Positions 57,823 through 64,000 of a DNA stretch of 64,000 nt are shown in pieces (position 1 is the first letter of the stretch; each line of letters opens with the position of its first letter). The notes beneath the pieces were generated by a model. It did no database searches. It was not told the origin of the DNA and saw nothing but the letters and a program-made list of their open reading frames with translations. A program made the translations under genes and the position numbers. The stretch is from Silvimonas amylolytica (GTDB taxonomy: Bacteria > Pseudomonadota > Gammaproteobacteria > Burkholderiales > Chitinibacteraceae). Location of the stretch: assembly GCF_014645555.1 (NCBI RefSeq), contig NZ_BMLY01000001.1:577939-641938 (forward strand), written 5' to 3'.

Positions 57823-60800
57823 TCAATGAAAATCCCGGCTCCGTGTAAACAGGCCGCCCAACAACGCAGTCCGGTCTTCCAGCTTGCGGGCGACCACATG
57901 CAACACCCCTTCGACATGTTGTACCTCGCCATGCACCACCATCAGCCGTGACCCCAGCAACGCTTTGCGCCAGGTGGCTGCAATCTTCTCCCACACCACC
58001 ACATTGATATTGCCGGTTTCGTCTTCCAGCGTGACAAACACGACGCCATTGGCCGTTCCTGGCCGCTGCCGGCCAACCACAATGCCGCAGACTTTCACGT
58101 TGCGGCCATTGGGCGCGCGCTTGAGCTCGGCCGCGTTAATGAGTTTTTCCCGCCGCAAACGTTCGCGCAGTAACGAGAGCGGATGCCCGCGCAACGACAG
58201 CCGCAAGCTGCGGTAATCGGCAGAAATATCCTGCCCCAGAGAGGCCGCAGGTAAATCCGGGAACAGACCATCAGTTTCAGACCAGGCCAGATCATGCTCG
58301 GTATCAATGGCAGCCGCTTGCCACCATACTTGCCGGCGATGTCCGGCCAGTGTTTCAAATGCCCCACCCTCTGTCAGCGCGGTCATGTCACGCGTATCCA
58401 GCCGCAACAACTTTTGCACTTGCGCCACGGACTCAAACCCGCCGGGCGGGCGCAAACGGGCCAGATCAACCACCGCGGCTTCATTAAGACCTTTAATTTG
58501 TCGCATTCCAAGCCGCACCACCGGTTGTGGACGCGCCAACTCTTCCAGAGTGCAATCCCAATCACTGTGCTGGACATCTACCGGCCGTACCTCAATGCCG
58601 TGACGCTGGGCATCCTGAATGAGCTGTGAGGCGCTATAAAAACCCATCGGCAATGAATTGAGCATGCTGCACAAAAAGGCCGCAGGTTCGTGATACTTGA
58701 GCCAGGCGCTGGCGTAGACCAGCAAGGCGAAACTGGCAGCGTGGGATTCGGGAAAGCCATATTCAGAAAAACCTTTGATCTGACTGTAAAGGCGCGTCGC
58801 AAACTCTTCGGAATAGCCATTCTTTTTCAGCCCTTCTTTGAGTTTTTCTTCGTATAACTGCAACTTGCCGGTTCGGCGCCAGGCCGCCATCGCGCGGCGC
58901 AGTCCGTCGGCCTCATTAGCTGTGAAATCAGCCGCCACCTGCGCCAGTTTCATCACCTGTTCCTGAAAAATGGGCACACCAAAGGTACGGCCCAGTACTT
59001 TTTCTACTTCAGGCGTCATGGGCTCGATCTTTTCCTGGCCATTTCTGCGCTTGAGATACGGGTGGACCATCCCGCCCTGGATGGGGCCCGGCCGCACAAT
59101 CGCGACTTCAATCACCAGGTCATAAAACGCTTTGGGCTTCAGCCGCGGCAACATGGACATCTGCGCCCGCGATTCAATCTGGAAGACGCCAATGGTGTCC
59201 GCCCGACTCATCATTTCGTAAACTTTCGGATCTTCCTTGGGCATGTTGGCCAGCGTCAGTTGCGAGCCACCCCGCAAAGCGGTCACCAGGTTCATGGATC
59301 GCCGCAAGGCACTGAGCATGCCCAGTGCCAGCACATCCACCTTCAATAACCCCATGGCATCCAGGTCATCTTTGTCCCACTGAATGACGGTGCGGTCTTT
59401 CATGCTGGCGTTTTCTACTGGCACAAGGCGGCTGACTGGCCCACGCGTGATGACAAACCCGCCCACGTGTTGCGACAAATGACGTGGAAAACCCAGCAAG
59501 GTTTCAGTGAGTGTGAGCATCAGCTGGACTGGTTTGCTCTCCGGGTCCAGCCCTGCTTCAACCAGCCGCAAAGGCAACTCTTTACGCTGATCCCACCAGG
59601 ATAAATTACGCGACAAGCGATCAAGCTGGTCTGTTGCCAGCCCCAGCGCCCGGCCCAGATCACGCAAGGTGGATTTGGGGCGATAAGTAATCACGGTGGC
59701 GGCCAGGGCCGCCCGCTCCCGAGAGTATTTGTCATACAAATGCTGGATGACCTCTTCGCGCCGGTCGTGCTCAAAATCCACATCAATGTCCGGTGGTTCA
59801 TCCCGTTCTTTGGAAATAAACCGTTCAAACAAGGTATCCGCCAACGCGGGATCAACAGCGGTGATTTCCAGCGCATAACAGACGGCGGAATTGGCCGCTG
59901 AACCGCGCCCCTGGCACAGAATGCCTTTACTACGCGCAAACTGGACAATCTCGTGCACGGTCAAAAAATAGGGTTCGTATTGCTTGAAGCTGATGATGTC
60001 CAGTTCATGTTCAATCAACCCACGAACTTTCTCCGGCACGCCTTGCGGATAACGCTTGTGCAAGCCCGCCTCAGTCAGCTCCGCCAGATGTTCTGCCGCA
60101 GTTTTCCCCTCTGGCACCAGTTCATCCGGGTATTCATATCTCAGTTCTTTCAGATCAAACGAGCAGCGTTCCGCTACCCGCAGCGTTTCTGCCAGCAAAT
60201 CTGCCGGATAGAGCATGCCCAGCCGCTGGCGAGGCCGCAGATGACGCTCGCCATTGGGGAACAAGGCATGGCCGCATTCCGCCACCGGTTTATGCAAGCG
60301 CAGGGCCGTCATCACGTCTTGCAAGGCGCGGCGGGACCGCGTGTGCATGTGGACATCGCCCGCGGCCACGCATGGCAGGCCGGTCTGCCCGGAGAGCCAC
60401 CGGAGTTGCGCCATCCGCCCCGCATCATCCGGCCCTTGTAACAGTTCTACTGCGATCCAGGCGCGGTCTTCAAATACACTCTGGCACCAGAAGGCATCGT
60501 GGATGTCGGGTTGCTCAGGGGGAATCCACAATGCCAGCAGGCCACGCGCATAGTCCGCCACATCGTCACGGGAAAGCTTGTATTCGCCCTTGACCGCAGC
60601 GCGACGACCCAGCGTAATCAGGGCGGACAAATCGCCGTAGGCATTGCGGTCCGGCGCCAGCAATACCAGCTTGAGGCCGTCATCCAGCGTGAACTCAGCC
60701 CCGACAATCAGCTTGAGCGGATCTCCCTTCATACTTGTGATGGCCTGCCAGGCCCGCACGATCCCGGCCAGCGAGCACTCATCGGTGATGGCTAGCGCGG

Positions 60801-60954
60801 TGTAACCCAGTTCCCGGGCTTTCTCGACCAGCTCCTGAGCGTGCGAAGCACCACGCTGGAACGAAAAATTAGAAAGGCAATGCAACTCGGCATAGGCCGG
60901 CACTGAGGTCAGCGACTGCATTGGGCGGGTCACCTGATCATCAGAAAATGCCAT
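57823..60954 (-). CDS. dnaE2: Error-prone DNA polymerase III alpha-like subunit (DnaE2/ImuC)
   Basis: A 1043-residue C-family polymerase of the ImuABC mutasome, which performs damage-induced translesion synthesis. The N-terminal PHP domain (residues about 11-230) opens with YAELHCLSNFSFQRGASHAQELVEKA. The active site motif PDIDVDFEHDRREEV is near 383-397, and a HhH/OB region is at the C-terminus (NVKVCGIVVGRQRPGTANGVVFVTLEDETGNINVVVW). ATG at 60954 overlaps the imuB stop by 14 bases; the longer frame from 61053 runs into imuB and is rejected. Confidence 0.94.
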   Translation of the reverse strand: MAFSDDQVTRPMQSLTSVPAYAELHCLSNFSFQRGASHAQELVEKARELGYTALAITDECSLAGIVRAWQAITSMKGDPLKLIVGAEFTLDDGLKLVLLAPDRNAYGDLSALITLGRRAAVKGEYKLSRDDVADYARGLLALWIPPEQPDIHDAFWCQSVFEDRAWIAVELLQGPDDAGRMAQLRWLSGQTGLPCVAAGDVHMHTRSRRALQDVMTALRLHKPVAECGHALFPNGERHLRPRQRLGMLYPADLLAETLRVAERCSFDLKELRYEYPDELVPEGKTAAEHLAELTEAGLHKRYPQGVPEKVRGLIEHELDIISFKQYEPYFLTVHEIVQFARSKGILCQGRGSAANSAVCYALEITAVDPALADTLFERFISKERDEPPDIDVDFEHDRREEVIQHLYDKYSRERAALAATVITYRPKSTLRDLGRALGLATDQLDRLSRNLSWWDQRKELPLRLVEAGLDPESKPVQLMLTLTETLLGFPRHLSQHVGGFVITRGPVSRLVPVENASMKDRTVIQWDKDDLDAMGLLKVDVLALGMLSALRRSMNLVTALRGGSQLTLANMPKEDPKVYEMMSRADTIGVFQIESRAQMSMLPRLKPKAFYDLVIEVAIVRPGPIQGGMVHPYLKRRNGQEKIEPMTPEVEKVLGRTFGVPIFQEQVMKLAQVAADFTANEADGLRRAMAAWRRTGKLQLYEEKLKEGLKKNGYSEEFATRLYSQIKGFSEYGFPESHAASFALLVYASAWLKYHEPAAFLCSMLNSLPMGFYSASQLIQDAQRHGIEVRPVDVQHSDWDCTLEELARPQPVVRLGMRQIKGLNEAAVVDLARLRPPGGFESVAQVQKLLRLDTRDMTALTEGGAFETLAGHRRQVWWQAAAIDTEHDLAWSETDGLFPDLPAASLGQDISADYRSLRLSLRGHPLSLLRERLRREKLINAAELKRAPNGRNVKVCGIVVGRQRPGTANGVVFVTLEDETGNINVVVWEKIAATWRKALLGSRLMVVHGEVQHVEGVLHVVARKLEDRTALLGGLFTRSRDFH

Positions 60955-62392
60955 GCAACCACCATGAGTTCTGAAAATGGTCGTACAAGATCCAGTAACG
61001 GCGGCCGGAAACCCCTTGTGCGATGTAGTAATCCCGCACAACAGGATGTTCATCCCACCAGCCTGATTCGATCCGCTCTGGCCGCCCTTGTAGCGTCAGG
61101 ACTTCGCCATACCAGGGCTGTTCATTGCGCAGGCTAAGCGCTTGCGGTTGCGCCATCAGCCAGCCCGGGCGCGCCCCAACCGGAAGCGCTTCGCTTTTGT
61201 CACCGGGACTGGCCAGCCGCCAGGCCCGTTCGGGGCGGTGGTCCGATACCGTGGCAACGGCACGCACGGCATCTTCACCCAGGCGGGCAGACAGGCGCGC
61301 CAGTAGCAACTGGAAATTGGCATCCCCCGCGGCATGCCCAAAGAGGCCCAGCGGCATGCCATCAAGCTGATGCAATTGATCGGCAATCAAGGTAATGGTG
61401 GCTGCAGGCGCGGCCAGTTCATAGCGCTCCAGCCGTTCTTGCAATACCGACATGAATTCGGCTGCGCGCCGACCAGGCATGCCAAAACGTACAGTCAGCT
61501 CACTGGCGGGGATATCTTCATGTTTAAGCCGCAAGGTGACTTCCTGGACGCCCAGCCCCCGGCCAGAGAGAAAAGTCTCCAGCGCATCGAACAACCATTG
61601 CCCGACCTTGGCAAACGCATCCAGGCTGTCAACGGGGTAATCCAGGTCAACACCGTATTCAAAGCGGTCTGGCGGTGTAAACGGGTCACGGGGATCGGCG
61701 GCCAGGCCCAATGCCTGATCCAGCAAGTTGGGCAAGGCCACGCCAAAGCGGCGCTTGAGACCAGCACGCGGCAAATCCAGCAAAGCCCCCAGATTTTGCA
61801 AACCCAGTTGTGCCAAACCTTCCAGCGTCGCGTTATCCACCGGCAAGACCGCCAGCGGCAGATCGGCCAAGGCCCAGGCAATGTCTTTGTCAGCCATGAC
61901 TGCCCTGGTGCGCTCACAGGCCGCTCGCCAGCCGGCAGCCAAAAGAGTGGGCGCCACCCCTGTCGTCACCGTCAGGCCAAACGCGCGTAACCCTTCACAG
62001 ACCAGGTCACGCAGATGCGGTAGCCCGCCAAAATATTTAAGGCAGCCGCCAATCTCCAGCAGCAGCGTGTTGCTTGTGCCAATGACCACGGTTGGCGTGA
62101 ATTGCAATGCCCAGGCAGCCAGCACGGACATCTTCTGTGCCTCGGCTTCAGGCTTGCGCACAAAGATGTCCAGCTCGTTAGCCAGCGCAAACGCGGCAGA
62201 CAGCTTCATGCCTGGCCGAATGCCAAGTTGGGTCGCCAGGGTATCGGCCAGCATGACCCGCTCGCCACTGCCCTGCGCGATCACAACCAACCGTGGACGC
62301 ATTGTGGCGTCTTCTTCAGTGAGAGAGCCTTGGTGCCGCGGCGGAAAGACTTCCAGCGGCAACAAAGGCAGATGGATGGCCAGCCAGAGCAT
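60941..62392 (-). CDS. imuB: ImuB, catalytically inactive Y-family polymerase-like protein
   Basis: A 483-residue Y-family homologue that links ImuA and DnaE2 in the mutasome, typically through the beta clamp. Little-finger and fingers elements are present (VMLADTLATQLGIRPGMKLSAAFALAN near 45-71; LARLSARLGEDAVRAV near 365). The acidic active-site residues of polymerases (DxD and SxDE) are not visible: MLWLAIHLPLLPLEVF replaces the first, LLEIGGCLKYFGG the second. ATG at 62392 has GAGGAGG six bases upstream. It overlaps imuA by 77 bases. Confidence 0.9.
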   Translation of the reverse strand: MLWLAIHLPLLPLEVFPPRHQGSLTEEDATMRPRLVVIAQGSGERVMLADTLATQLGIRPGMKLSAAFALANELDIFVRKPEAEAQKMSVLAAWALQFTPTVVIGTSNTLLLEIGGCLKYFGGLPHLRDLVCEGLRAFGLTVTTGVAPTLLAAGWRAACERTRAVMADKDIAWALADLPLAVLPVDNATLEGLAQLGLQNLGALLDLPRAGLKRRFGVALPNLLDQALGLAADPRDPFTPPDRFEYGVDLDYPVDSLDAFAKVGQWLFDALETFLSGRGLGVQEVTLRLKHEDIPASELTVRFGMPGRRAAEFMSVLQERLERYELAAPAATITLIADQLHQLDGMPLGLFGHAAGDANFQLLLARLSARLGEDAVRAVATVSDHRPERAWRLASPGDKSEALPVGARPGWLMAQPQALSLRNEQPWYGEVLTLQGRPERIESGWWDEHPVVRDYYIAQGVSGRRYWILYDHFQNSWWLHGIF

Positions 62393-63023
62393 GCCGGGCC
62401 TCCTCATGCGTCAGATTCAGCGGTGTCGTCAAAGGCAAGCCGCGTCGCTTCAAAATATGAATTTGCCAACCCTGCGGCGTTGTCGCGACAGACAAGCGCA
62501 ACGGCAAGGGAGATGACGCGCCATGACCACGCCCGGCCCGCAGCAAAAAACCATAGCCCTGCCCGGCCCGCGCAGCCAGTTGTAAACGGCGGCAAGCCCG
62601 ATCATCAATAAACCCTTGAATCCACCCCAGCACTGCGCCACAGGCTGGCTCACGTAATGCTTGTTCCATCGCCCAGAGAGATTCAGTGACGGATGAGGGT
62701 TGTAACCAGAGTGTCCGGCCCGGATCAACCCCGGCTTGCTGCCATGCGGGTGCATAGGGCACGTGGGGCGGTGCAATCAGGACAACCTCTCGCGCCCGGG
62801 CAATCCGGCCCAGGGCTGGCCATAGCAAGGACAGTTCGCCGCTGCCAGCACCATTGGCCAGCAAGATCTCCGTCACGCTGCCCACGGCCCAGCCCCCTCC
62901 TGGCAACTGGGCATCCAGCACACCATATGAGGATGGCATGGTGGTGGGCAGTACCGGCGTGCGGCCATCACCCAGCCAGACCGCGGGGTGTTGCAAGACG
63001 CTGGCAAGGCTTGCGTGGTTCAT
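62316..63023 (-). CDS. imuA: ImuA, RecA/SulA-like mutasome protein
   Basis: A 235-residue SulA/RecA-like P-loop-derived protein. The family opening VWLGDGRTPVLPTTMPSSYGVLDAQLPGGGWAVGSVTEILLANGAGSGELSLLWPALGRIARAREVVLIAPPHVPYAPAW matches ImuA. It is the first gene of imuA-imuB-dnaE2. ATG at 63023 is preferred, with TTG in frame two codons upstream (TTG-ATC-ATG). The frame runs 77 bases past the imuB start, so its last about 25 residues share DNA with imuB. Confidence 0.88.
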   Translation of the reverse strand: MNHASLASVLQHPAVWLGDGRTPVLPTTMPSSYGVLDAQLPGGGWAVGSVTEILLANGAGSGELSLLWPALGRIARAREVVLIAPPHVPYAPAWQQAGVDPGRTLWLQPSSVTESLWAMEQALREPACGAVLGWIQGFIDDRACRRLQLAARAGQGYGFLLRAGRGHGASSPLPLRLSVATTPQGWQIHILKRRGLPLTTPLNLTHEEARHALAGHPSAFVAAGSLSAAAPRLSH

Positions 63024-63058
63024 GATCAAAATCCTGCGGGGCTGATAATTCAGGCTCG

Positions 63059-63087
63059 ATCATATAGAACGATCGTTCTATTTTCAA
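63059..63087 (-). promoter_or_regulatory. imuA promoter with LexA-like palindrome as its spacer
   Basis: On the minus strand TTGAAA (63082-63087) and TATGAT (63059-63064) are separated by exactly 17 bases (63065-63081), and the spacer contains AGAACGATCGTTCT. The full palindrome ATAGAACGATCGTTCTAT covers 63064-63081. GAAC-N4-GTTC is the form of the B. subtilis-type SOS box, not the E. coli CTG-N10-CAG box. Confidence 0.75.
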
Positions 63088-63371
63088 ACCAGGCAGATGA
63101 ACGTTCCATCCCCTGGCTGTCGTTCACAGACAACACCCCGCCAGTGCGCGCCGAGTTGCAGTTTGCCTGTCAGTACGCCATCAGCGCCCCCGAAACTGCG
63201 TCAACTGCTGTTTCTGCCAGGCCTTTGCGCATCCAGCACGCGTGTCCATCAGAAGAAAACTGAAAACGCACGGCGTACACTAAGGACAGCAAGTACATGG
63301 GCAGCGACCAGCTGGTTTTGCTAGAATCCGCAAGCTTCGGTATTTACTCGCCTTTTCGGGACCCCTACACA
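63088..63371. other. Intergenic region upstream of the TPR gene
   Basis: This about 280-base stretch between the imuA promoter and the TPR gene contains no supported gene. TAGAAT at about 63325 in TTTTGCTAGAATCC is a possible -10 for the TPR gene; I do not see a good -35. Confidence 0.4.
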
Positions 63372-64000
63372 ATGAGCCTGCGACACATCGCTCTCTCTCT
63401 GATTTTCTGCATGATGGCCGGCCACGCACTCGCCGGTGACTTCGAAGATATCCAGCAACTGCTTAAGGCCCGCCAGTACAAATCGGTGATTGATCGCGCC
63501 GATAGTTACCTGGCCAAGAACCCCAAAGACGCGCAGATCCGCTTCTTGCGCGCCATTGCATTGACCGAGCTGGGTCGCAATGATGAAGCCATCAAGGCCT
63601 TTACCTCACTGACCGAGGACTACCCGCAACTGCCAGAGCCCTATAACAATCTGGCCGTGCTGTATGCGCAGCAAAACCAGCTGGACAAGGCTCGCACAGC
63701 ACTGATGATGGCTATCCAGACCAATCCGTCATACGCCATTGCACATGAGAACCTGGGTGATCTGTATGCCCGCATGGCTTCGCAAGCTTATGACAAGGCC
63801 TTGCAGCTGGAAGGCGGTAACCAGAATGTACAAAGCAAGCTGACCCTGGTGCGTGAGTTGTTCAGCAGCAATCCAGGCATTGCGCCGCATGCCACACCGT
63901 CTGCCGCCGGCACCAAACTGGCACAGAACGCCCCGGCCAAGGCCACCCCAGCACCGACACCTGTTGCCACACCGCGTCCGACACCGACACCGCAACCGAC
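63372..64000 (+). CDS. TPR-repeat exported protein, C-terminus outside the window
   Basis: The frame is open to the window edge; 209 residues are visible. A signal peptide (about residues 1-21, ending ALA) is followed by TPR-like helices: DIQQLLKARQYKSVIDRADSYLAKNPKDAQIRFLRAIALTELGRNDEAIKAF (about 25-76) and PEPYNNLAVLYAQQNQLDKARTALMMAIQTNPSYAIAHENLGDLYARMASQAYDKAL (about 85-141). A Pro/Thr/Ala-rich linker then begins (PAPTPVATPRPTPTPQP). The 5-prime end is at the ATG at 63372. The function is unknown; the linker may tether the TPR domain to another C-terminal domain. Confidence 0.85.
   Translation, partial: MSLRHIALSLIFCMMAGHALAGDFEDIQQLLKARQYKSVIDRADSYLAKNPKDAQIRFLRAIALTELGRNDEAIKAFTSLTEDYPQLPEPYNNLAVLYAQQNQLDKARTALMMAIQTNPSYAIAHENLGDLYARMASQAYDKALQLEGGNQNVQSKLTLVRELFSSNPGIAPHATPSAAGTKLAQNAPAKATPAPTPVATPRPTPTPQP

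Follow-up and report, generated by a model that had tools for sequence, protein, structure and literature searches.

A palindrome in the imuA promoter of Silvimonas as the putative operator of a noncanonical LexA

LexA systems in related bacteria

The canonical LexA boxes of Proteobacteria are CTG-N10-CAG in E. coli and CTGT-N8-ACAG in betaproteobacteria. Autoregulation and control of recA are the usual signature of a LexA. A noncanonical LexA with the consensus GAACGaaCGTTC is reportedly found in Sideroxydans, Gallionella, Nitrosomonadales, and Methylophilales. On noncanonical betaproteobacterial LexA, an excerpt of PMC8565304 cites Sanchez-Alberola et al. (2015, J Bacteriol 197:2622). The LexA box of Bacillus subtilis, i.e., the Gram-positive type, was given as CGAAC-N4-GTTCG in a table from a section of PMC9578287. 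In Pseudomonas putida, lexA2 is co-transcribed with imuA-imuB-dnaE2, as stated in an excerpt of PMC5261740. In Laribacter, Chromobacterium violaceum, and Neisseria, lexA is absent according to part of PMC3135505, where loss in a common ancestor was suggested. A literature search for LexA in Chitinibacteraceae and for the SOS response in Silvimonas returned no report; one may exist in print.

The imuA promoter and its operon

The window, i.e., the whole analysed stretch of 64 kb from the soil bacterium Silvimonas amylolytica, carries the three genes of an ImuA-ImuB-DnaE2 cassette, contiguous and on one strand.

62316-63023, minus strand: imuA, translesion synthesis-associated protein ImuA, ATG at 63023 (NCBIfam NF033429, 184.7 bits, cut-off 150)
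60941-62407, minus strand: imuB-type Y-family polymerase-like protein with an IMS domain (Pfam PF00817, 36.6 bits, cut-off 23.2)
57823-61053, minus strand: dnaE2, error-prone DNA polymerase, longest ORF (NCBIfam NF004225, 1458.5 bits, cut-off 939)

The imuB-type ORF overlaps imuA. Its name rests on context, i.e., the IMS domain and the position; no ImuB-specific model was matched in the NCBIfam search. In the longest dnaE2 ORF, the family match sets in only at residue 51, which places the probable true start near 60903.

The imuA promoter, TTGAAA-17-TATGAT, lies on the minus strand (63087-63059) upstream of imuA-imuB-dnaE2. Direct reading and a script both recovered it around a perfect 18-bp palindrome, as the preliminary description of this DNA had it.

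63082-63087, minus strand: -35 hexamer TTGAAA of the imuA promoter (script and promoter scan)
63059-63064, minus strand: -10 hexamer TATGAT of the imuA promoter (script and promoter scan), base 63064 shared with the palindrome
63064-63081, strand-neutral: perfect 18-bp palindrome ATAGAACGATCGTTCTAT, the proposed LexA operator (direct reading and script)
63066-63079: 14-bp core AGAACGATCGTTCT of the palindrome
63067-63078: GAAC-N4-GTTC within the palindrome

The palindrome had been said to fill the promoter spacer exactly. It covers the whole 17-nt spacer (63081-63065, minus strand), but overruns it by one base, into the -10 hexamer. Within the window, the palindrome is the sole perfect one of 18 bp (one found by script), and the promoter is the single match to the strict promoter pattern. 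A general promoter scan of 62900-63400 gave two sites against a shuffle mean of 0.2, and the imuA promoter had 10 of 12 consensus bases.

Judged from sequence comparison, the palindrome is very probably the operator of the sole, noncanonical LexA of this genome, which would hold imuA-imuB-dnaE2 off until DNA is damaged.

Motif counts in the genome

The GAAC-N4-GTTC core was observed four times in the window against 0.86 expected, and three of the four lack the flanks of the imuA site. This count is what favours reading the imuA palindrome as a chance feature that serves no regulator. In the 4.56-Mb genome, the core occurred 96 times and the reversed control 97 times, so the bare core proves nothing by itself. 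Core counts alone were therefore rejected as operator evidence, because they do not tell an operator from a chance match, which flanks and conservation can.

The flanked pattern WGAACRNNYGTTCW, i.e., A/T flanks and purine/pyrimidine inner bases, matched 14 genomic sites against 5 for its control; as it was derived from sites already seen, this excess is no independent test, whereas conservation is. Seven of these sites closely precede SOS-type or conserved genes: two stand before lexA, and one each before recA, imuA, recG, fan1, and a small gene that is conserved. No clear SOS gene was found downstream of the other seven, which are not claimed as operators.

Flanked sites not claimed: C1:1131187, C1:1295161, C2:470618, C2:563968, C3:258976, C6:159070, C11:83077

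With the core unenriched and half of the flanked matches lacking a clear SOS gene, a matching sequence is not enough to call an operator. At two of the unclaimed sites, the flanked box precedes a long ORF (L037:1501-1514, at C11:83077) and a trypsin/PDZ protease (L036:1501-1514, at C6:159070). The protein downstream of C11:83077 looked FtsK-like by eye; its 487 tested residues had no Pfam match, so the likeness stays a lead.

The canonical CTGT-N8-ACAG pattern occurred 26 times in the genome and its control 38 times, so there was no enrichment. It was found in none of 146 SOS promoter regions, and thus not at lexA, recA, or imuA, where a canonical system has it. A LexA recognizing CTG-N10-CAG only, which the preliminary description had named as the opposing case, is not what appears here.

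Conservation in the family

The imuA gene is present in 16 of 43 family genomes, each with a single box in the imuA promoter, beside the -10 hexamer. None of the eight core bases differs among these promoters, nor does the T that follows the core. Variation is seen at inner bases one to three (of four) and in the -35 hexamer. Variable surroundings around an invariant core have the look of selection on an operator, and this conservation is the decisive evidence for the imuA site.

The other SOS genes showed the same box. It was found before recA in 43/43 family genomes (30/30 and 13/13), before recG in all 30 loci fetched from the 43 genomes, and before fan1 in the eight genomes having the gene. 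The lexA upstream survey covered 80 loci. The box precedes lexA in 48 of the 49 relatives with at least 51% identity (L039-L087, 51-98%), and the one miss, L086, is cut by a contig end. The remaining 31 loci (L088-L118) are distant and were left out of this count; in that upstream stretch, 13 of them did have a match.

Taken over imuA, recA, recG, fan1, and lexA, GAAC-N4-GTTC was present in 145 of 146 upstream regions, with a letter-shuffle expectation of 0.33, and the related genomes behind these counts are not independent samples. Of eight control patterns, among them CTGT-N8-ACAG and altered spacings, each hit 0-1 of the 146 regions. The reading of the palindrome as a LexA operator is drawn from this family-wide conservation together with the controls.

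A chance origin of the palindrome is next to inconceivable, since the eight core bases beside the -10 hexamer are kept in every family imuA promoter and the controls stay at 0-1 of 146; conservation already contradicts it. Another dimeric repressor could in principle share its sites with the SOS genes, with LexA acting elsewhere, and the 96 genomic occurrences show that the core is common. However, the same box stands before lexA, recA, recG, fan1, and imuA throughout the family, none of the 146 regions has the canonical box, and a box on lexA itself and on recA is the usual mark of LexA. Such a repressor is therefore very unlikely, and LexA stays the favoured regulator of the imuA site.

Four of 30 order loci (L216, L217, L219, and L224) were without GAAC-N4-GTTC upstream. 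In L217 and L219, where the LexA relatives belong to other families of the order, other palindromes, GGACGATCGTCC and GTACGTTCGTAC, replace it. This is perhaps further motif drift within the clade. In a Magnetococcales MAG (L085), the LexA is 51% identical to Silvimonas LexA and AGAACGAACGTTCT lies upstream; horizontal transfer or a mis-binned contig is possible.

The LexA of the genome

The genome is 99.99% complete and encodes a single S24 peptidase, the LexA, about 0.5 Mb from imuA. The only match to the LexA DNA-binding domain in the genome is this same protein, at 21.4 bits, under the Pfam cut-off of 23.7. The preliminary description had argued that such a site calls for a diverged LexA, and the low score agrees with this. 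It had also mentioned that a second LexA controls some of these operons in other bacteria; here the regulator would be the sole LexA, as the genome has just the one.

The protein has 195 residues and is 98% identical to the LexA of Silvimonas terrae, the nearest named relative of the genome (Chitinibacteraceae, Neisseriales). The lexA promoter, which had been proposed as the place to look for GAAC-N4-GTTC, carries two boxes, AGAACGTTCGTTCA and AGAACGAATGTTCT, starting 51 and 25 nt before the ATG. In an alignment with UmuD, Ala81-Gly82, Ser117, and Lys154 of LexA fall on the UmuD cleavage site and catalytic pair.

These findings bear on a second, operon-specific LexA of the LexA2 type, which would control imuA apart from a canonical LexA. 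Operons of this kind exist in P. putida (excerpt of PMC5261740), and both kinds of LexA are matched in several genomes of the order sample, G087 and G123 among them. In Silvimonas, the one S24 peptidase is not adjoining imuA, and the same box occurs on lexA and recA. The LexA2 arrangement thus conflicts with what this genome contains, barring a lexA hidden in an assembly gap, and it is extremely improbable. Control of imuA by the sole LexA is preferred.

The descent of this LexA was followed in a FastTree tree of 119 sequences (118 of 119 chosen loci and Silvimonas LexA, with long branches flagged). Silvimonas LexA was placed among Chitinibacteraceae, adjoining LexA of Gallionella and other Nitrosomonadales. 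A branch with support 100 parted the Chitinibacteraceae/Gallionella LexA from the LexA of Firmicutes and the canonical LexA of betaproteobacteria. The nine Firmicute/Actinomycete rows formed their own branch, apart from Silvimonas LexA. By this position, the resemblance to the Bacillus box was not inherited from a Bacillus LexA. The box had been called Gram-positive in style, which holds for the GAAC-N4-GTTC core but not for the descent of the protein. The LexA of a MAG titled Janthinobacterium (L051) fell among Iodobacter LexA in the same tree, and this MAG is probably a misnamed bin.

In a 399-genome sample of the order, the diverged DNA-binding domain was matched in 94 genomes and PF01726 in 253 (E up to 0.001), with 232 over the cut-off.

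Mechanistically, a box-bound LexA dimer would sit between the -35 and -10 hexamers and deny RNA polymerase access to the imuA promoter. When DNA is damaged, RecA on single-stranded DNA would trigger self-cleavage of LexA at Ala81-Gly82. This cleavage would turn on imuA-imuB-dnaE2 jointly with lexA, recA, recG, the FAN1-type gene, and the small gene. Binding, repression, cleavage, and damage induction are what we infer for this LexA from the boxes and the aligned residues.

Other genes carrying the box

In the same genome, recA, recG, the FAN1-type gene, and the small gene carry one box each, and lexA carries two.

L035:1-1482 (C4:34400-35881), minus strand: recG, LexA-type box just upstream
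L018:991-2001 (C1:227190), plus strand: FAN1 HTH gene (DNA repair protein of the nuclease type), preceded at about 50 nt by the box AGAACGATCGTTCT
L034:1531-1794 (C3:418225-418488), plus strand: small conserved gene, 88 aa, box AGAACGATTGTTCT about 30 nt upstream

The conserved box in every recG locus read suggests that recG is an SOS gene in Chitinibacteraceae. The name fan1 rests on the FAN1_HTH domain in 337 tested residues.

Of the 43 family genomes, 27 carry a relative of the small gene. The box was found in all 20 loci read, i.e., those fetched of the 27, four of which were unresolved by tblastn and were read by position. The protein alignment used 13 of the 20 loci. Searches of Pfam, NCBIfam, and PHROG gave no family match at a useful level. 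The structural model had a pLDDT of 84.7, and Foldseek returned nothing significant (best E 0.36 in PDB and 0.58 in BFVD). By VIA-align, 27 of the 28 listed entries were toxin-antitoxin proteins of the RelE/ParE/HigB/YoeB kind (Z 2.5-6.0; best alignment Z 6.0 over 63 residues, rmsd 2.4), all of them from Foldseek's own shortlist and with Z in the middling range of the tool. One entry, HP0894, is titled conserved protein and is presumably RelE-like. Because of the middling Z and the shortlist origin, kinship with RelE/ParE is a lead rather than a finding. A role as SOS effector is likewise a lead. No partner antitoxin gene was seen beside the small gene at the genome's own locus.

By-products of the analysis were thus a complete putative noncanonical LexA regulon in Neisseriales and a candidate family-specific SOS gene. 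It is a speculative and rather unlikely scenario that Neisseriales lost the canonical lexA and that Chitinibacteraceae rebuilt an SOS regulon, including a partnerless small protein of RelE/ParE fold as a damage-checkpoint effector.

Damage-induced mutagenesis in Chitinibacteraceae is very likely wired through a LexA box that is not of the E. coli kind. Tools seeking CTG-N10-CAG would therefore miss the whole SOS regulon here. The order-level contrast with Neisseriales reported to lack lexA could be used to test how SOS control disappears and is rebuilt. In addition, a small conserved SOS gene candidate without a known family has been named.

Comparison with known systems

The imuA site shares the GAAC-N4-GTTC core with the Bacillus box, but its outer bases are A/T, not C/G. 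Compared with canonical proteobacterial LexA, the repair-gene targets and the S24 self-cleaving type of repressor are alike, whereas the DNA-binding domain and the operator differ. As in P. putida, imuA-imuB-dnaE2 would be under a non-standard LexA. However, neither a lexA2 inside the operon nor a second lexA was found in Silvimonas, where the operon is without lexA and the sole LexA would act globally. Unlike the members of the same order that are reported to lack lexA, Chitinibacteraceae have a noncanonical LexA and a whole predicted regulon.

The closest system is that of Sideroxydans lithotrophicus and Gallionella. The motif is the same as the consensus reported for them, a box precedes lexA, and SOS genes are the predicted targets. 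Silvimonas LexA belongs to the clade of Gallionella LexA with 54-58% identity, i.e., the Gallionellales clade, and the box stands before lexA (48/49) and recA (43/43), as in a Sideroxydans-type regulon. The host differs, being Chitinibacteraceae of the Neisseriales rather than the Gallionellales, Nitrosomonadales, and Methylophilales from which the type is reportedly known. Chitinibacteraceae also often have two boxes at lexA, and their regulon adds fan1, recG, and the family-specific small gene. It is reasonable to consider the Silvimonas LexA and its motif as a further member, in another family, of the betaproteobacterial kind that has reportedly been in print since 2015.
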